Shown here one piece after another: positions 1,298-33,356 of a stretch of DNA of 64,000 bases (its first letter is position 1; each line of letters opens with the position of its first letter). The DNA lies in assembly GCF_001050275.1 (NCBI RefSeq), contig NZ_BBYA01000008.1, positions 496,001 to 560,000 on the forward strand, written 5' to 3'. Origin of the DNA: Leptolinea tardivitalis. GTDB lineage: Bacteria > Chloroflexota > Anaerolineae > Anaerolineales > Anaerolineaceae. Made by a program: the position numbers and the translations under genes. The notes beneath the pieces were generated by a model. The model was not told where the DNA came from and ran no database searches. It worked only from the letters and a program-made list of their open reading frames with translations.

Positions 1298-2230
1298 TTA
1301 AATCACCTGTTGTTTTTCTGGAAACAACGCACAGGCTATTTTTGCCGCCAACTCAGCATTATTGCGCAGTAGAGCAAGGTTGGTTTTTAATGTGGCATTT
1401 CCACTAATTTCACTCAACCGGGAGAGCAGGTAAGGTGTAAGAGCATTCCCGTGAACTCCGGCCAGGTGTGCGTCTTTTTCTGCCCGTGTTATCCAGGCTT
1501 CCACGATTTGGGTTGGGATCGCATCTGCAGGGGGTGGGGGATTGACCACCAGTACAGCCGACTTTAAGCCAGTCTGCCAATGGGCTAGGGCTACATTGGC
1601 TACTTCTTCCGGAGTGTCCACCCGGCATTCCAGACGAAGTCCGCTGGAGGTGGAATAAAATGCAGGAAATTCATCCACGCCATAACCAACTACCGGTACA
1701 CCCTGAGTTTCAAGAAATTCAAGCGTTGCAGGAAGGTCAAGAATTGATTTGGCACCGGCACAAACCACGACGACTGGACTGCGTCCCAATTCAATCAGGT
1801 CGGCTGAGATATCAAAATTGGATCCCCGGTGAACACCACCAATCCCGCCAGTGGCAAATACACGGATACCGGCATTGCGGGAGACAATTAATGTGGCTGC
1901 CACTGTCGTTCCGCCGTCCCATTTTCGCGCGGCTGCTGGACCAAAATCACGGGCACTGATTTTATGAGTGGATCGCGATTTTGAAAGATTTTCCAGCTCG
2001 TCGGCTTCAAGGCCAACATGCACCTGGCCGCCTAAAACCGCAATGGTCGCCGGGGTGGCATTTCCATCGGAGACGATTTTTTCCATACTTTGAGCGAGTT
2101 CAAGATTGACCGGTTCTGGCAGGCCGTGGGTGATCACAGTTGATTCCAGAGCCACAACAGGTCGTTGATTTCGTAATGCGGCGCTCACCGTTTTGGTAAA
2201 GGCGAAGGTACTACTACTGGCTGAATCCAT
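1298..2230 (-). CDS. psuG: Pseudouridine-5'-phosphate glycosidase
   Basis: A 310-residue cytoplasmic enzyme that reversibly splits pseudouridine 5'-phosphate into uracil and ribose 5-phosphate, using a Mn-dependent Schiff-base mechanism in characterised members. Family signatures are visible in order: ALESTVITHGLP (about residues 27-38, with the conserved Glu), KISARDFG, VFATGGIGGVHRG, and CAGAKSILDLPATLE with the conserved lysine. Length matches the family. The ATG at 2230 has a GGAG about 8 bases upstream. No pseudouridine kinase (psuK) lies next to it, so the usual psuK-psuG pair is not complete here; a strong terminator follows the gene. Confidence 0.92.
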   Translation of the reverse strand: MDSASSSTFAFTKTVSAALRNQRPVVALESTVITHGLPEPVNLELAQSMEKIVSDGNATPATIAVLGGQVHVGLEADELENLSKSRSTHKISARDFGPAAARKWDGGTTVAATLIVSRNAGIRVFATGGIGGVHRGSNFDISADLIELGRSPVVVVCAGAKSILDLPATLEFLETQGVPVVGYGVDEFPAFYSTSSGLRLECRVDTPEEVANVALAHWQTGLKSAVLVVNPPPPADAIPTQIVEAWITRAEKDAHLAGVHGNALTPYLLSRLSEISGNATLKTNLALLRNNAELAAKIACALFPEKQQVI

Positions 2231-22304: not shown

Positions 22305-22336
22305 ACCGGTGAAGGGCAAATCCCTTCACCGGTTTT
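22305..22336. terminator. Bidirectional terminator between fhs and glnE
   Basis: A perfect 12-bp stem (22305-22316 with 22322-22333, loop CAAAT) is followed by TTTT on the plus strand, with a T-rich tract on the other side as well. It separates the convergent fhs and glnE genes. Confidence 0.85.
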
Positions 22337-22337
22337 A

Positions 22338-25300
22338 TTATCCAAGAAGCCGGGTATTGATTTCCTGTACATCTGTTTGATAAACAAGCAAATCGTCCCG
22401 TAAACGATCAATATCATTTCCATACCGCAGTCTACGCGCCAGAAATGAAAATTCTTCACTGCCGAATGGCGGAACGGTGATGTCTTTGGCATTTCCACGG
22501 ACAACACGAAGGGAGTCGATCAACCAGCGCAGGAAAGTGTGGGCTTTTCGCAATTTCGCGTAATCAATATCAGAGAGAATTTTATTTTCGTATAGACACA
22601 ACATGGCCTCTCGTATATTCGTTACACGGAGAGCTGGAATATCTTTGCCATAGATTATTTGAAGACCTTGGATCAGGTATTCCACATCAACCAATCCACC
22701 CGGGCTGTATTTTGCATTGAATGTGCCGCCGATCACCAGGTGACGAACCTGTCGTTCCCGCATTGCACGCATGGCTGTGACATCAAATATTCCGTTGCTA
22801 TAGATAAAGTCATCACGCAGTCTGCAGATTTCATCACCAAGCTGTTTATCACCATGGATGGGTCTGAGTTTTACCAATGCCTGACGCTCATATGCCCATG
22901 CCGGACCATCAGGGGAAAAATACCGCCGGAAAGCCTCCAGTGATACAGCCATGCTTCCTGCATTACCATATGGACGAAGCCGGAGATCGATCTGGAAAAT
23001 TCCTTCCTGTCTAGCATGAATTGAAGAGATGACGGACCTGACCAGTTTTTCATAGAATTCACTGATCTCTATTTTTTCCGGACCATCTGTATACCCTGTT
23101 CCATCATATATGAACATCAACTCAATATCTGAAGCAAAGCCTAATTCACGTCCGCCGCATTTTCCCAATGCGACGACTGAATATTTCCCTGCTGATCCAT
23201 CTTCCCCTGTTGGTTTTCCATACCGAAATGTTAACTCTTCAAGACACAGGTTTACCACGGAAGAAATGATCACTTCTGCCAGTTCAGTAAGTTCGGCGGC
23301 AAAGTCCCAGAATTCTGATGTAAGCTCTAAAATATGACGCATATCGATACGGAAGAGCTCACGATCTTTGTAGGCATTGATGGCAGCCCGCCAGTCGGGA
23401 TAACCAATACCTCCGACAATCTTTGTTTCTATGGCCAGAGTGACTTCATTCCTCAATTCCATGCGCGGTTTTGCCGCTGCCAGGGCACCCACATCTTTTA
23501 CCACCGGGAAAAGGTTGGCATATTGCATCCGGAGAAAATCATCCCACAGGAATTCACTCACGCCCAGAATGTGCGCCAGCGCCTTTAAGACATCCGATTG
23601 TTCCAACGATGCGATCTCATCCGTCCAATTGGGACGTTGAAAGAGATGGCCGAGGAATTCGCGGAAATGGAGCAGGGCAATTTCTGGGTTTGGCGAGTTG
23701 GGAAGCAAATGTGTGAAGTGTTTAATTAGAACGATCGCTGCCCGCAACTCGCGTTGTTTGCCGGGATCTTCGATCCGATTCCCATTTTCATCGGTCACAT
23801 AGAAAACATCCTGTGCGCGATTACCGATGGACCTGACTACCATGCGGGCAATATTGGTGCGTGTAAAAGCCAGAGCATTGGTAAATTCGTAAAGAAAACC
23901 GAATGTATCCGGGGCATCGATACGCAGGATCGTATACCGGCTGGAAGGTTCATTGATGATTTCGATGTCAATGGGCAGCAGGGGAGCAACCGTTCCGGGA
24001 ATAGATTGAAATGCCGCTCCTACTCGTTTTGCCAGCGATCCTCGTGCTTCTCTGCGAAGGCCGGACTGAAACATGTCCAACATTCGGTGAAGATCATCAC
24101 GGTAGTCGTCCCAAACAGATTGATCTACCGGTTTATGATTGGCCGGGCGAACGGTTAACACATCTACGATTTTTTGTCTTGTTTCCTCGTGATTCTTTTT
24201 TATTGCCGTATTTTTTGTTCCATTGGTCGTTGTGCCCGGGCTTAAAAGTCCTTTTTCAGATTGACCGGCTGCCTTCTCTGCCGGCTCATACGTGAAGGCA
24301 TACCCATCAATGATATTCATTCCATGCACAAACAGGAGACCACAAATCACTGATAATTCCCCTGGATAATCATAGGCAACGACAGTTACTCTATAGGTTT
24401 CATCTGATGAAAAAGATGTGTCTACGATCACAGGTTTGGATGGGGAAAGTTCACGCGCCAGTCTGGCATGGTTTTCTATCTCTTCTGGTGTAAAGGCTTT
24501 TATATATGAGGTATCCATGCGTGAGATATGCTGATGCACTTCTGGCGTAAGCGGTGGAGCTTTCTGAGGGACACCAATATATTTCATGAAAATTGCCCGT
24601 ATCGCCTGGCAATGTTCCTCATACCGTTCGATGAAATGATCCCCATCTTCAAAACCCAACCGGCGCGCCAGTATCCGAATAGCCATGGAATCTGATGGAA
24701 GAGAATAAGTCTGCCGGTAATCCATCATTTGCAGGTAATGTTCAATCGTCCGCAAGAAAATATAACCATCATGCAAAATCCGGGCATCAGCAGATGAGAG
24801 CAATCCGGCTGATCTCAGATAAGAGATCGCTTTCAATGATGCCCGGGTGCGGATTTGTGGATATTCCCTCAAATTTACCAATTGAAGATATTGCAGCACA
24901 AATTCAATATCACGAATGGATCCGACACCGAGTTTGACCTCTCCCCAATCGCGTCCCTTTTCACGGAGGATTTCTTCTGTTCGTTGTTTCATGGTAAAAA
25001 CTTCCGTTTTTACCTGTTGAGGAGGCAGGTTCACAATGAAAGGGTATGACATTTCACGGAATTCTTCCCCCAATGGAAGGTCACCGGCTATCGGGCGCAA
25101 TTTAAGCAGTGCCTGTTTTTCCCAGAGACGGGCATTTTTCTCGAGGTACTGGCAGAAACCTGCCAGGGTTGGAATCAATGGACCATCATTTCCCCATGGA
25201 CGCAGCCGCAGATCAATACGATATAAAAAGCCATTGGAAGTTGTTGATGCCAGATTATCGATTAATTTTTGTGCAAGTGGAATAAACCTGGATGGATCAT

Positions 25301-25964
25301 CACGGACAATAAACACCAGATCAATGTCTGAACTGTAATTTAATTCCCGACCGCCCAGCTTACCCATGGCAAGAACAGAAAAACCAGTGCTTGAGATTCC
25401 CGTCTGGGTGCATGCCAGGTTTAAACAGGTTCGTGTAAGGGCAATGGCTGTACGGGATATTTGAGAGACTACAGCCGAAAGATCATATAAATCAAGGAAA
25501 TCGCTGGCACCAATACGAAGTAACTCATTTTGTTGATACCGCCTGAGGGCATCTTTCTTTTCAATATCTGTTGATGCAGTTCGAACAGCTGCTTCTGCTT
25601 CAGTCTGTATTTGCTCGATTGTTTTTCGCTGGGTTAATTTTTGCCTGTCTAACAAAAGATCAACCGATCGTGGATTTCTTAATAGAATTTCTGTCAGAAA
25701 ATGACTGGCCGAGAATAAAGTAATGAGAATCTCAATAACCCTCGTATTCTCTTCCAGAAGAGGAATTAGATCGACACCGTAGTTTTCTATAAACCGTTCG
25801 AAATTCACGAGTGATCGATCCGGATCGGCGGCTGTTCCCAGTACACTCAAAAAAATCGGGGTTATCTGTTTAAAATTGGGATTTTTCGTTTCAATACGAG
25901 TTAAAACTGATCGGGCAGAATGTGGATCTGCAAACGGAATATCTTCCATCAAGGTTTCAACCAT
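22338..25964 (-). CDS. glnE: GlnE-type glutamine synthetase adenylyltransferase with internal ACT-domain pair
   Basis: A 1208-residue protein, about 260 longer than typical GlnE. The first nucleotidyltransferase module has MGKLGGRELN then SSDIDL (Asp213, Asp215) and IDLRLRPWG. The second has LGKCGGREL then SDIEL (Asp946, Glu948) and IDLRLRPYG. In classical GlnE the first module removes and the second adds AMP on glutamine synthetase. Between them, two ACT domains lie at about residues 522-640 (YRVTVVAYDYPGELSVICGL) and 676-750 (TILRIDAPDTFGFLYEF, DVFYVTDENGNR), laid out as in the glutamine-sensing tail of GlnD. This would let the enzyme sense glutamine directly (inference). glnA 3.5 kb away keeps the target tyrosine. 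Upstream lies a copy of the shared nitrogen promoter; a TATAAT (25971-25976) six bases before the ATG is also noted. Confidence 0.9.
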   Translation of the reverse strand: MVETLMEDIPFADPHSARSVLTRIETKNPNFKQITPIFLSVLGTAADPDRSLVNFERFIENYGVDLIPLLEENTRVIEILITLFSASHFLTEILLRNPRSVDLLLDRQKLTQRKTIEQIQTEAEAAVRTASTDIEKKDALRRYQQNELLRIGASDFLDLYDLSAVVSQISRTAIALTRTCLNLACTQTGISSTGFSVLAMGKLGGRELNYSSDIDLVFIVRDDPSRFIPLAQKLIDNLASTTSNGFLYRIDLRLRPWGNDGPLIPTLAGFCQYLEKNARLWEKQALLKLRPIAGDLPLGEEFREMSYPFIVNLPPQQVKTEVFTMKQRTEEILREKGRDWGEVKLGVGSIRDIEFVLQYLQLVNLREYPQIRTRASLKAISYLRSAGLLSSADARILHDGYIFLRTIEHYLQMMDYRQTYSLPSDSMAIRILARRLGFEDGDHFIERYEEHCQAIRAIFMKYIGVPQKAPPLTPEVHQHISRMDTSYIKAFTPEEIENHARLARELSPSKPVIVDTSFSSDETYRVTVVAYDYPGELSVICGLLFVHGMNIIDGYAFTYEPAEKAAGQSEKGLLSPGTTTNGTKNTAIKKNHEETRQKIVDVLTVRPANHKPVDQSVWDDYRDDLHRMLDMFQSGLRREARGSLAKRVGAAFQSIPGTVAPLLPIDIEIINEPSSRYTILRIDAPDTFGFLYEFTNALAFTRTNIARMVVRSIGNRAQDVFYVTDENGNRIEDPGKQRELRAAIVLIKHFTHLLPNSPNPEIALLHFREFLGHLFQRPNWTDEIASLEQSDVLKALAHILGVSEFLWDDFLRMQYANLFPVVKDVGALAAAKPRMELRNEVTLAIETKIVGGIGYPDWRAAINAYKDRELFRIDMRHILELTSEFWDFAAELTELAEVIISSVVNLCLEELTFRYGKPTGEDGSAGKYSVVALGKCGGRELGFASDIELMFIYDGTGYTDGPEKIEISEFYEKLVRSVISSIHARQEGIFQIDLRLRPYGNAGSMAVSLEAFRRYFSPDGPAWAYERQALVKLRPIHGDKQLGDEICRLRDDFIYSNGIFDVTAMRAMRERQVRHLVIGGTFNAKYSPGGLVDVEYLIQGLQIIYGKDIPALRVTNIREAMLCLYENKILSDIDYAKLRKAHTFLRWLIDSLRVVRGNAKDITVPPFGSEEFSFLARRLRYGNDIDRLRDDLLVYQTDVQEINTRLLG

Positions 25965-27724: not shown

Positions 27725-29332
27725 ATGAGCACCATATTGAAACATCGTATCAAATGGCTACGGATTTTGATTATGGCAAGTCTCGTAGCGGCTCTTTTTA
27801 TACCGTCTCTGGTGGTTTTCGCTGATGATGGCGGACCAACGGTGGAGAGTGTTAACGGGGCAGTCCAGGGCGTATCGCTGGATCTAAACACTCTCTGGCT
27901 TTTTATCGCGGCATTTCTGGTGTTTTTCATGCAGGCTGGTTTTGCTCTCGTAGAGACGGGATTTACCCGCGCAAAAAATGTCGCCCATACCATGATGATG
28001 AATTTGATGGTTTTTTGTGTGGGTGCTATTGGTTACTGGGCTACCGGTTTTGCCATTCAATTTGGGGGAATAAATTTCGTGTATCCTGAAATCAGTTCAT
28101 CACTTCCTGCCTGGTCGTTCGCGCCGGTCACGCTGAGCAACTGGGTTAGCGATAAACTGGTGTCACCGCTATTGATCGGTGGTTCAAATGTATTCGGATT
28201 GGACGGTTTCTTCTTGAATGGAGTGACCTTATCAAGCGGCATCCTGGCATTCTTTTTATTTCAGATGGTGTTCATGGATACAGCTGCGACGATCCCAACC
28301 GGTTCCATGGCAGAACGCTTGAAATTTTCTGGATTTGTTTTGATGGGATTATGGGTCAGCATGTTTATTTACCCATTGGTAGGCAACTGGGTATGGGGTG
28401 GTGGTTGGCTTGCTAACCTTGGGCGTAGTATTGGTTGGGGGAACGGCGTTGTAGATTTTGCCGGTTCGGGCGTTGTACACATGATTGGAGGTGCTGTGGC
28501 ATTAGCCGGAGCTATAGTGATCGGCCCCCGTATTGGCAAATTTAATAAAGACGGATCAGCGAATACCATTCCTGGACACAATATTTCCCTGGGTGTGTTG
28601 GGAACTATCATCCTGTTCTTTGGCTGGTTTGGTTTCAATCCGGGTTCGTCACTCGGCTTTACTGGCGGTCTCCGCAACCTGGCCATTCTAGCGGCCGTGA
28701 ACACCCTGTTGGCTGGTGCAGCCGGCGGTATGTCTGCCATGTTCTATATGTGGTGGTTCAGTAAAGCTAAAAAACCAGATCCTTCTATGTCTGTTAACGG
28801 AGTTTTAGCCGGTCTTGTGGCTATCACAGCTCCCTGTGCATTTGTTGACGTTTGGGCTTCTGTGGTAATTGGATTAATCGCTGGTGTGTGGGTTTGTCTG
28901 GCTTCAGTATTGCTCGAAAGGTTAAAAATTGACGATCCAGTGGGAGCCATTCCGGTTCACTTCTGCAATGGCCTGTGGGGTGTACTGGCGGTCGGTATTT
29001 TTGCCAATGGCAATCCGGATACGGCTGCATGGAATGGCATATCAACACCGGTGACCGGTTTGCTATATGGGGGAACAACCCAGATATTATCCCAAACAGC
29101 GGAGGCTCTTTCCATTATTGTCTTTGTAGGCGGCTTGTCATTCGTCTTCTTCAAAGTGATATCTGCTCTCGGTTTATTAAGAGTTTCTGCAAAAGACGAA
29201 TTGGCCGGGTTGGATTTACCGGAGATGGGTTCACTGGGATATCCAAAAGACTGGGAGCCTTCATCCACTGCTCTAAAAGGTTTACCTGGAGAAAAAGGAA
29301 AGGTCACATCGGTGCCAGTACCGGTGGATTAA
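27725..29332 (+). CDS. amt: Ammonium transporter
   Basis: A 535-residue Amt/MEP/Rh channel with a cleavable-looking signal peptide (about residues 1-33, ending VVFADDGG). Eleven helices follow. AFLVFFMQAGFALVETGFTR, the first pore histidine in VVHMIGGAVALAGAIVIG, DTAATIPTGSMAERLKF and the second pore histidine in IPVHFCNGLWGVLAVGIF are conserved. The trimer conducts ammonium/ammonia inward under nitrogen limitation. The C-terminal cytoplasmic tail (after about residue 480) lacks strong similarity to the PII-contact tails I know. Usually amt is followed by glnK; here no PII gene is present and glnA comes next. AAGGAG precedes the ATG by 6 bases. Confidence 0.95.
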   Translation: MSTILKHRIKWLRILIMASLVAALFIPSLVVFADDGGPTVESVNGAVQGVSLDLNTLWLFIAAFLVFFMQAGFALVETGFTRAKNVAHTMMMNLMVFCVGAIGYWATGFAIQFGGINFVYPEISSSLPAWSFAPVTLSNWVSDKLVSPLLIGGSNVFGLDGFFLNGVTLSSGILAFFLFQMVFMDTAATIPTGSMAERLKFSGFVLMGLWVSMFIYPLVGNWVWGGGWLANLGRSIGWGNGVVDFAGSGVVHMIGGAVALAGAIVIGPRIGKFNKDGSANTIPGHNISLGVLGTIILFFGWFGFNPGSSLGFTGGLRNLAILAAVNTLLAGAAGGMSAMFYMWWFSKAKKPDPSMSVNGVLAGLVAITAPCAFVDVWASVVIGLIAGVWVCLASVLLERLKIDDPVGAIPVHFCNGLWGVLAVGIFANGNPDTAAWNGISTPVTGLLYGGTTQILSQTAEALSIIVFVGGLSFVFFKVISALGLLRVSAKDELAGLDLPEMGSLGYPKDWEPSSTALKGLPGEKGKVTSVPVPVD

Positions 29333-29504: not shown

Positions 29505-30917
29505 ATGGCTAAGACAGTTGCAGATGTATTGGCTCTTTCCAAGAATGTAAAAATGGTGGACATCCGCTTCACCGATCTTCCCGGTCAGTGGCAGCATTTT
29601 TCCATTCCAGTACACAGACTATCTGCGGAGTTTTTTGAAGATGGTATTCCGTTTGATGGGTCATCCATCCGCGGTTTTCAAGAAATTCATGAATCGGATA
29701 TGCTTCTCAAAGCAGATCCCGAAACGGCGTTTATTGATCCTGTGGATGCAATTCCGACACTTGTTATTACGTGCGATGTGTATGATCCCGTAACAATGCA
29801 GCCGTACTTACGTGATCCACGCTATGTGGCCCGCAAGGCGGAAGCATATCTGAAACAGACTGGAATAGCCGATACTGTTTTCTTCGGTCCAGAAGCTGAA
29901 TTCTTCATCTTTGATAATGTTCGCTATTCAAACAACACCTACGAATCTTTCTATTACATCGATAGTGAAGAAGGCTGGTGGAACAGCGGCCGCGCAGACA
30001 GGCAAAACTTTGGTGGTCAAATTTCCCCGAAACGCGGTTATTTCCCTGTTCCACCGGCAGACACTCTTCAGGACATTCGGTCCAAGATTGTAATGGCTTT
30101 GGAAGAAGCCGGTGTTTCGATGGAAATTCATCACCATGAAGTGGCTACCGCCGGGCAGACAGAATTAGGTATGCGTTTCGATACCCTTACACGGATGGCT
30201 GATAATTTATTACTTTATAAATACATTGCCAAGAATATCGCCCGGCAGAACGGCAAGACTGTCACCTTTATGCCCAAACCGCTCTTTGGTGATAACGGTT
30301 CTGGTATGCATGTCCATGCTTCTCTGTGGAAAGGCAACACCAATGTATTTTATGATGCTGCCGGTTATGCTGGTATTTCAGATACGGCCAAGTATTACAT
30401 TGGCGGTCTATTAAAACATGCCCCGGCTTTGTTGGCATTAACCTCCCCGACGACAAACTCTTTCCGCCGCCTGGTTCCCGGTTATGAAGCACCGGTCAAT
30501 CTGGCTTACTCTCAACGCAACCGGTCAGCCATTTGTCGTATCCCGGTGACCAAGAGTTCAAAAGCAAAACGTGTTGAATTCCGCGCGCCAGATCCTTCCT
30601 GCAATCCGTACCTATGCTTCGCCGCTTTATTGATGGCCGGTCTGGATGGTATCCAGAATCGCATTGATCCCGGTGAACCACAGGACAAGGACCTTTACGA
30701 ACTCCCGGCGGAAGAAGCAAAATTAATCAAACAGGTTCCAGGTTCTTTGAGTGATGTTTTGCTGGCTCTGGAAGCAGATCATGATTTCTTGTTGAAGGGT
30801 GATGTGTTTACGAAAGATTTGTTGGAAGCCTATATTTCGTACAAACGGTATAACGAACTTGATCCTGTACGGATGCGCCCCACACCTTACGAATTCACTC
30901 TGTATTTTGACATCTAG
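29505..30917 (+). CDS. glnA: Glutamine synthetase type I
   Basis: A 470-residue type I enzyme that joins ammonium to glutamate using ATP, forming cytoplasmic dodecamers. Motifs: [20 protein letters not shown] (metal-binding Glu), [11 protein letters not shown], the ATP-binding block [16 protein letters not shown], and [22 protein letters not shown]. The adenylylation site is present as KDLYELP with Tyr398 (codon at 30696-30698), matching Tyr397 of the E. coli enzyme, so the glnE product 3.5 kb away is a fitting regulator. AAGGAG precedes the ATG by about 8 bases. A hairpin with a long loop follows the stop. Confidence 0.97.
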
Positions 30918-31052: not shown

Positions 31053-33356
31053 ATGAAAAACATTCACAGGTCTCAGGTTATGAAAATACAAGAATCCATC
31101 TCGCCCAATGAAGCCGATATTCGTCTATTGGAGGCTCTGGCAAGCCTCAATCAGATTAGCAAAACAATTAACGAGATTGGCTCAGCTGATGTCATCAGCA
31201 GCGTCGACAGCCTAAAACTAATTGTGGAAAGTGCCATCAGGGTTGTCCCCGGATCATCAGCCGTGATCTATACCTATAATGAAGCGAAAGCTATATTTGA
31301 ACCGGAATCACGTGTTTCTGCCGAACCGGATGGCAATGAAAATCTGGCTGCCGCCAGTATGAAGGATGATCTGCCGCGAGTTCATGGAATTGGGAATCGA
31401 GCAGTTAGCCGGCGAGACCGGGTTCTATCGTATGAGGAATCGGATGTGAATGTACATCCGTACTATGAATCTCTGGGTGTCAAAGCAGTTGGGTGTTTCC
31501 CAATGATTGTGGCTGATCAAGTTGTTGGTGTTTTATATGTTTATCTTTATGAAGAACGACCATTTTCTCGCCTTGAATTACTAATGCTAGAAAATTTTGT
31601 TCACCAGGCTGCAATGGCCATTTACCATTCACGACGTCTGGCTGATGTAAGAAAAGACCTGACACGAAAAGAAGACGACTTGAACCGGTTGAACCGCGCG
31701 GGAATGTTGATTTCATCCCGGTTAAAACTGGAAGAAACCCTGGAATCCATTCTTCATCTGGCATTAGATATGACGGGAGCTCATTACGGAATTTTCCGGC
31801 TATTGGATAAAAGCGGCAAAAATTTGGTCACCCATGCCTTCGCCGGTCAAGACATGACTCGGCCTTTAACGGAAGAATTGCCCCTTAATTCCAATAGTGT
31901 AATGGCTTTTGCCGCCAGAAGTCGACAGACCATACTTATTCCAGATTTGATGGCAGAACCGTGGGCCAAAGTATATTATCCGCTGGATGCGGGAATGCAG
32001 ATGCGTTCAGAACTGGCGGTACCGTTAATCAATGCCAGCGGCCGGTTGGAGGGTGTCTTAAATCTGGAAAGCCCCGAACCCGGTGCATTTGATGAAAACC
32101 ACAGCCACAATTTGCAGACCATGGCCACTTTTGCCGTGGCGGCGATCCAGGAAGTCAGATTGCTGGATGCCTTGCAGGAGGTTGCACAGCTTATCCTTTC
32201 ACAGCCATGCCAGAAGGTTTTAGATCACTTGACGTCTCTGGCGTGCGATTTATTAAATGCGTCTGTCAGTGCGTTGTGGTTGCGACATGAAAATGAACTT
32301 GTACTGGAATCTTCCTGCGGCGCTTATGTTCATGGTGAAACCATGCCCGTGGAAGGTAGTTTGACCGGCCTGGCAGTGCTCAACCGGCAAGCTGTTGTAG
32401 CAGATGATGTCCGTATTGATCCCAGGTTCCACCGGCGTGATCTGGCCAAATCTCAAAACTGGATGCGAGCCCTTATTGTGCCATTATTATCCAACGAGAA
32501 TGAACTTCCGCTCGGTGCCATCGGGGTTTACAGTTCAGAACCTGATCCTGGACTTTTTGCCGAATCTGATTGGGACAAAAAGGTACTGACATTCCTTTCG
32601 TATTATGCCGTAATGGCCATTCAAAATGAAAGCCGGCAACAGGCTCTGCGATCTGCACAGGAACAACGCTCAGTCGCAGAGACTTTCGCGGCTGTCGGAG
32701 ATATCGCCTCTAATCTGTTGCATCATTTGAATAATAAAGTGGGAACCATACCGGTTCGTGTTCAGAGTATTCAGGATAAATGCGCACCTGCTTTACAGGC
32801 AGACCCGTATCTGGCAAACAACCTGGGGGAGATAGAGCGGTGTGCTATGGAAGCCATGCAGACCGTACGCGACAACCTGTCTCACCTGAGACCTATCAGA
32901 CTTGAACCCGTGAATATAGAAGGCAGGATTGCAGAAGCGTTGCAGGCGGCAAAACTGCCACCCGGTATAAAAATCCAACTTAAGGGGTTATCAGATCTTC
33001 CTCTGGTGACCGCCGGAGGACAAAGTCTGGTATTTGTTTTCACGAACCTGATTGAAAATGCAGCAGATGCCATGCAGGGAAAGGGTATCATTTCGATTAA
33101 TGGTAAGGCTTTTGAGAAATGGGTCGAAATTACTATCAGAGATACCGGGCCGGGCATCCCGCCTGAATTGCATGACAGAATCTTTGAATTAACTTATTCA
33201 GGCCGTAGCGGTCAACGCCCTGGAAAATTAGGATTTGGCCTTTGGTGGGTAAAGACTTTGATGACGCGTCTGGGAGGATCTGTTAATATCGATAGCGATG
33301 GTGAGCACGGTACCGCATTCCGATTGCGTTTACCCAGAGTGGAGGAAGTAAAATGA
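31053..33356 (+). CDS. Soluble sensor histidine kinase with three GAF domains
   Basis: A 767-residue cytoplasmic kinase with no membrane helices. GAF domains lie at about residues 50-195, 225-372 and 385-530. The phosphoacceptor region reads GDIASNLLHHLNNKVG (His557 or His558), the N-box NLIENAADAM (665-674), the G1 box DTGPGIP and the G2 box GKLGFGLWW. GAF domains bind small ligands or signals such as cGMP, haem or 2-oxoglutarate-like molecules; the ligand here is unknown. It overlaps the response-regulator gene by 4 bases (ATGA), so the two form a pair. It lies next to glnA and is a candidate nitrogen-status sensor (inference). An ATG at 31080 with AGGT upstream is an alternative start. Confidence 0.88.
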   Translation: MKNIHRSQVMKIQESISPNEADIRLLEALASLNQISKTINEIGSADVISSVDSLKLIVESAIRVVPGSSAVIYTYNEAKAIFEPESRVSAEPDGNENLAAASMKDDLPRVHGIGNRAVSRRDRVLSYEESDVNVHPYYESLGVKAVGCFPMIVADQVVGVLYVYLYEERPFSRLELLMLENFVHQAAMAIYHSRRLADVRKDLTRKEDDLNRLNRAGMLISSRLKLEETLESILHLALDMTGAHYGIFRLLDKSGKNLVTHAFAGQDMTRPLTEELPLNSNSVMAFAARSRQTILIPDLMAEPWAKVYYPLDAGMQMRSELAVPLINASGRLEGVLNLESPEPGAFDENHSHNLQTMATFAVAAIQEVRLLDALQEVAQLILSQPCQKVLDHLTSLACDLLNASVSALWLRHENELVLESSCGAYVHGETMPVEGSLTGLAVLNRQAVVADDVRIDPRFHRRDLAKSQNWMRALIVPLLSNENELPLGAIGVYSSEPDPGLFAESDWDKKVLTFLSYYAVMAIQNESRQQALRSAQEQRSVAETFAAVGDIASNLLHHLNNKVGTIPVRVQSIQDKCAPALQADPYLANNLGEIERCAMEAMQTVRDNLSHLRPIRLEPVNIEGRIAEALQAAKLPPGIKIQLKGLSDLPLVTAGGQSLVFVFTNLIENAADAMQGKGIISINGKAFEKWVEITIRDTGPGIPPELHDRIFELTYSGRSGQRPGKLGFGLWWVKTLMTRLGGSVNIDSDGEHGTAFRLRLPRVEEVK

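Follow-up and report, generated by a model that had tools for sequence, protein, structure and literature searches.

The GlnD-PII-GlnE-GlnA cascade is the textbook case of layered control of nitrogen assimilation. Classical GlnE (E. coli ATase; NCBIfam PRK11072) is bifunctional and made up of two nucleotidyltransferase halves, a deadenylylase-type half (AR) followed by an adenylyltransferase-type half (AT). E. coli GlnE is directly responsive to glutamine although it has no ACT domains, so direct glutamine sensing by a GlnE is not in itself new. In GlnD, the [protein-PII] uridylyltransferase (TIGR01693), the C-terminal ACT domains are considered the glutamine sensors of the enzyme (PMC3173338).

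A gene combining features of both enzymes is present in a 64,000-nucleotide stretch of Leptolinea tardivitalis DNA (hereafter the window). Its product resembles classical GlnE in possessing AR and then AT, which group half by half with their classical counterparts, and in its probable substrate, a tyrosine of a GSI-beta glutamine synthetase (GS). It differs from classical GlnE in having ~260 aa inserted between the halves, made up of a GlnD-type linker and a tandem of ACT domains, in its D-x-E AT motif, and in that the Chloroflexota bearing it are without GlnD and usually without PII. Over their entire length the linker and both ACT domains share homology with the C-terminus of GlnD, but the uridylyltransferase and HD arrangement of GlnD is missing, and the ACT pair lies inside the chain, on a GS-modifying rather than a PII-modifying enzyme. 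In Streptomyces, adenylylation of GS by GlnE is not known to depend on the PII relay, but there the enzyme is classical, without ACT domains, and the genomes do have GlnD and PII.

Architecture of the fusion protein

The open reading frame (22338..25964, minus strand) begins with ATG and encodes 1208 aa in the order AR, GlnD-type linker, ACT1, ACT2, AT. PF03710 (GlnE) matches in two stretches (E 7.5e-92) and PF08335 (GlnD_UR_UTase) likewise, together marking both catalytic halves. The protein scores 534.5 bits against PRK11072, above the cut-off of 487, but its 97.7 bits against TIGR01693 fall below the cut-off of 519.4, so that, judged by family scores, it is not a GlnD overall. It is a GlnE in which a GlnD C-terminal module separates AR from AT. 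The original prediction had proposed a GlnE with a GlnD-like tandem ACT region between its catalytic halves, and Pfam and NCBIfam matches, hhalign and AlphaFold all agree with it; the boundaries given for the linker and the two ACT domains (520–750) hold with a slight shift, the module spanning residues ~476–750.

The AR half (residues ~79–464; 24573..25730, minus strand) is covered by PF03710 and PF08335 and matches the E. coli GlnE structure 1v4a (E 1.9e-43). Within the AT half (residues 760–1208; 22341..23687, minus strand), residues 890–1149 match the GlnE structure 3k7d (domain E 1.5e-34). In a maximum-likelihood tree of 67 halves, the fused N-terminal halves group with classical N-terminal (AR) halves and the fused C-terminal halves with classical C-terminal (AT) halves, each with support of 98/96. 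Each set also forms one clade (100/100 and 100/97, respectively), which points to a single origin of the architecture within the tree sample. The idea that the C-terminal half is a duplicated AR had arisen because, against each half of classical planctomycete GlnE, the window AR gave better matches than the window AT; it is rejected by the same tree.

Acidic motifs are intact in both halves of the 62 fused sequences compared. The AR nucleotidyltransferase motif GKLGGRELNYSSDIDL (residues 201–216; 25317..25364, minus strand) is D-x-D with both aspartates invariant (n=62). The corresponding AT motif GKCGGRELGFASDIEL (residues 934–949; 23118..23165, minus strand) is D-x-E, again with D and E invariant (n=62), whereas D-x-D is found in the classical GlnEs examined. 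D-x-E is compatible with nucleotidyltransferases in general and may be functional here, but the departure from the classical motif counts against rather than for the reading proposed below.

Between the halves, the GlnD-type linker RMDTSYIKAFTPEEIENHARL (residues 476–508; 24441..24539, minus strand) aligns with GlnD C-termini in hhalign and contains an invariant motif Y and H (n=72). ACT1 (residues ~512–633; 24066..24431, minus strand) is delimited by AlphaFold, VIA and hhalign and includes a poorly ordered loop of ~40 residues (~559–597), while ACT2 (residues ~666–750; 23715..23969, minus strand) is picked up by Pfam (below its cut-off), NCBIfam, AlphaFold and VIA. TIGR01693 aligns residues 474–744 with positions 618–845 of its 850, which is the register of the GlnD C-terminus. 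When residues 476–761 are excised, TIGR01693 still matches over 621–845 (7.8e-18) and PRK05092 matches at 1.8e-23; GlnD models match the ACT region in all 72 relatives scanned. Profile comparison by hhalign with the C-termini of 16 GlnD proteins, among them those of E. coli K-12 and Planctomycetota, spans the linker plus both ACT domains over 218 columns, with a probability of 99.8, an E-value of 1.9e-29 and a score of 204, against scores of 11–29 for 20 column-shuffled control profiles. No Pfam ACT model passes its cut-off in the window copy, where ACT2 falls just below (E 1.4e-5, 25 bits against a gathering score of 27) and ACT1 diverges more, and Pfam ACT matches 53 of the 72 relatives at E 0.01.

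Structure prediction of this region had been proposed as a check on whether it folds as ACT, and AlphaFold returns two ACT units (pLDDT 85.7, pTM 0.83; input alignment of 72 sequences). A sequence search of the PDB with the region gave no significant match, so no solved GlnD ACT template was usable. The clearest neighbors in VIA-align are ACT pairs, namely those of aspartate kinase (3l76, Z 11.5), threonine deaminase (8y1j, Z 9.7) and CASTOR1 (5gs9, Z 8.8). Foldseek alone returns mixed matches with low TM, probably because the two ACT units are placed differently relative to each other. The full-length model has a pTM of 0.57, too low for domain placement to be read from it. Across the 72 sequences the ACT region has 22 invariant columns and a mean column identity of 50%; the aspartate of the β1-α1 loop is invariant in both ACT domains (D57 and D211, region numbering), as is G214. 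Separately, the linker and ACT1 (residues 476–647; model 1–172) resemble a region of the M. smegmatis 180-kDa glutamate dehydrogenase (9hv0, Z 8.7), perhaps a module of this type used by a further enzyme of nitrogen metabolism.

Distribution and the glutamine synthetase partner

A scan of genome contigs found 479 relatives, of which the best 80 were examined. ACT-ACT-AT is present in 80/80 of these; 77 have at least part of AR in frame and three are cut by a contig end. Frame and order are the same throughout these best 80 of 479 loci, contig-end cuts aside, among them those of Leptolinea sp. HRD-7, whose genome is complete, and Anaerolinea thermolimosa, which excludes an assembly or frameshift artefact. 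Record titles place most of the best 80 in Anaerolineae, with others in Planctomycetota including Gimesia; single MAGs bearing the fusion are labelled Calditrichaeota, Thermoanaerobaculia (Acidobacteriota), Spirochaetales and Nitrospinota, although MAG labels can be wrong. The nearest relative of the window fusion among these 80 is that of Leptolinea sp. HRD-7. At the 3' side of the window gene, a 12-pair stem (22305–22333), terminator-like on both strands, lies between glnE and a convergent formate-THF ligase gene.

All GlnE-type proteins found among 301 sampled Chloroflexota have the ACT pair (five full fusions and three ACT-AT proteins). Among 99 Planctomycetota, the spacing of PF08335 stretches identifies six fusions beside many classical GlnEs; five of the six were confirmed on their sequences, and the sixth is itself one of the best-80 loci (G323, L134). 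The two PF08335 stretches are ~1.5 kb apart in classical genes and ~2.1–2.24 kb apart in fusions, in agreement with an insert between the halves. One further genome, otherwise without GlnE, retains a weak trace of PF08335 that contains an in-frame TAG (L032; G064:C15:82861-83118), a possible relic of a lost glnE.

The three shorter Chloroflexota proteins (G153, L053:9179-11773; G137, L054:7128-9167; G013, L055:8483-11128) lack an AR half, consisting of ACT-ACT-AT, and in the tree they fall next to the fused C-terminal halves; the G137 copy is interrupted by a contig end, and GSI-beta is also present in all three genomes. The retention of ACT-ACT together with AT in these monofunctional relatives links the sensor with the AT half, and suggests that it acts on adenylylation. 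If the AR-less proteins are real, they would be adenylyltransferases whose chain has no deadenylylase half.

What does the fusion protein modify? The likely substrate is encoded nearby by glnA (29505..30917, plus strand), a GSI-beta GS whose best solved match is an M. tuberculosis-type glutamine synthetase 1 (E 1.6e-188). Site comparison identifies Tyr398 (DKDLYELP; codon at 30696..30698, plus strand) as the equivalent of the adenylylation site, and this tyrosine is present in 37/37 GSI-beta proteins encoded adjoining fusions. In a survey of 28 Chloroflexota genomes, which are phylogenetically non-independent, GSI-beta (counted as matches of ~60% identity or more) was found in all eight genomes with an ACT-bearing GlnE (five full, three ACT-AT) versus 1/20 without one. 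The site residue is Tyr in all eight, as read from hits covering the site (the G137 gene is split over two contig pieces, and one of them spans it), and Phe in the other matching synthetases of this survey. The two genes are often close: in four of the five fusion genomes sampled, glnA lies within a few genes of glnE, and 27 of 45 long fusion loci have a GS gene in the flank. A second GS in the window genome is of a different, more distant type. The window also holds an ammonium transporter gene, amt (27725..29332, plus strand), with no adjoining glnK. Directly downstream of glnA, the product of 31053–33356 (plus strand) contains three GAF stretches and a histidine-kinase-type ATPase domain, with no HisKA-type domain match.

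GlnD and PII in fusion-bearing genomes

The window genome is 99.3% complete and has no PF08335 match outside the fusion gene, and hence no GlnD. It also has no classical PII; its sole P-II family match, at 24 bits, resembles a DarA/PstA-type receptor for c-di-AMP. The lack of glnB or glnK beside amt, pointed out for the window at the outset, thus extends to classical PII genome-wide, and neither part of a separate GlnD and PII set, named as possible counter-evidence to the original prediction, was found. With both absent, a GlnD-PII relay to GlnE in its known form is impossible in this organism.

Among 25 fusion-bearing Chloroflexota (five sampled and 20 named), GlnD is found in none. Of the 25, 21 have no classical PII and four do have it (G307, G315, G322 and G325), all four without GlnD. 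Many fusion genomes have no PII-family match whatever, and others have divergent PII-like proteins. Weak PII matches were considered as hidden PII partners and set aside, the sequences read by eye resembling DarA/PstA-type receptors or other PII-like proteins. One fusion-survey locus (L038, genome G136; 1480–2187, minus strand) contains a 236-aa frame with tandem PII-like domains, lacking the usual T-loop text, that scores 39.7 bits.

In the sampled Planctomycetota and in some MAGs of other phyla the fusion coexists with GlnD. All six sampled fusion-bearing Planctomycetota and three MAGs (G314, G317 and G321) also encode a GlnD-sized PF08335 protein; eight of these proteins were read and match E. 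coli GlnD, and an Acidobacteriota MAG and a Spirochaetales-labelled MAG are among the genomes concerned. PII is present in these GlnD-keeping genomes wherever it was searched for. In the Spirochaetales-labelled MAG (G314, L105), a single contig carries glnD, glnB, amt, glnA and the fusion, the relay and the fusion thus standing side by side.

It would be tempting to regard the fusion as the cause of GlnD loss, but this inference is rejected: Anaerolineae without GlnE are without GlnD as well, so that its absence is a lineage trait and not evidence for replacement. The only sampled Chloroflexota genome with a clear GlnD (G081; n=301) has an adjoining glnK and no GlnE. The proposal that a built-in sensor removes the need for a GlnD-PII relay therefore fits the window genome but does not stand as a general rule, given the lineage-wide absence of GlnD, the four Chloroflexota with PII, and the Planctomycetota (6/6) and MAGs that keep GlnD. 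The accompanying question of whether fusion genomes are without glnD is answered yes for the fusion-bearing Chloroflexota (25/25) and no for these Planctomycetota and MAGs. In GlnD-keeping genomes the ACT sensor may have another role, or work alongside the relay.

Proposed control of GlnA and its alternatives

These observations favor a bifunctional GlnE in which a GlnD-type tandem ACT region would serve as the central glutamine sensor, switching adenylylation of GlnA without GlnD or classical PII in L. tardivitalis, a reading to which we assign a probability of about 0.7. Glutamine is the presumed ligand by homology to GlnD, and would push the enzyme towards adenylylation. At high concentrations it would bind the ACT pair and favor the AT half, which would place AMP on Tyr398 of the neighboring GSI-beta GlnA and turn it off; at low concentrations a block on the AR half would be released, AMP removed and the synthetase turned on. 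In a circuit lacking GlnD and classical PII, glutamine would act on GlnE directly and no further protein signal would be required.

ACT domains bind many amino acids, and the pairs of aspartate kinase, threonine deaminase and CASTOR1, the best structural neighbors of this one, bind ones other than glutamine. The pair could thus respond to glutamate, to some other end product of glutamine metabolism or to more than one ligand, placing GS under feedback by a non-glutamine signal. We consider this unlikely, since the homology is specifically to GlnD, whose models match every relative scanned, and the target enzyme is glutamine synthetase itself. It is very unlikely that the pair has only a structural role, as a hinge, or is a degenerate insert, with GlnE controlled through a glutamine site outside ACT, as has been proposed for E. 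coli GlnE, or by GS and ATP levels alone. The direct response of E. coli GlnE to glutamine and the long disordered loop of ACT1 would fit such an arrangement, but the strong conservation of the region, the retained loop aspartates and the occurrence of the pair in every Chloroflexota GlnE-type protein found speak against it.

A relay by a PII-like protein, with the PII-family matches as partners of GlnE and the ACT pair merely a co-sensor, would accommodate the four Chloroflexota with classical PII, the divergent PII-like proteins of others and the GlnD retained in fusion-bearing Planctomycetota. It is nevertheless distinctly unlikely, as the only PII-family match of the window genome looks DarA/PstA-type and many fusion genomes have no such match at all. 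The preferred reading, direct glutamine control through the ACT pair, can be extended beyond L. tardivitalis: it seems somewhat probable that the fusion is a one-protein nitrogen switch operating without GlnD or PII in many Chloroflexota, and that the same enzyme functions beside a complete GlnD-PII relay in Planctomycetota.

A search of the open-access literature found no description of a GlnE with ACT domains. What is new beside E. coli GlnE is the transplanted ACT sensor, together with a circuit that lacks both GlnD and PII. That the glutamine sensor of the first enzyme of the cascade is built into the last, in a form both stable and widespread, suggests that the cascade can shrink to a single protein. 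In such an arrangement glutamine would be read by ACT, apart from the 2-oxoglutarate/energy signal read by PII, so that the need for PII in GS adenylylation could be tested directly; it would also provide a compact switch to reconstitute. For the Anaerolineae, it suggests a possible route by which GSI-beta is regulated without GlnD.
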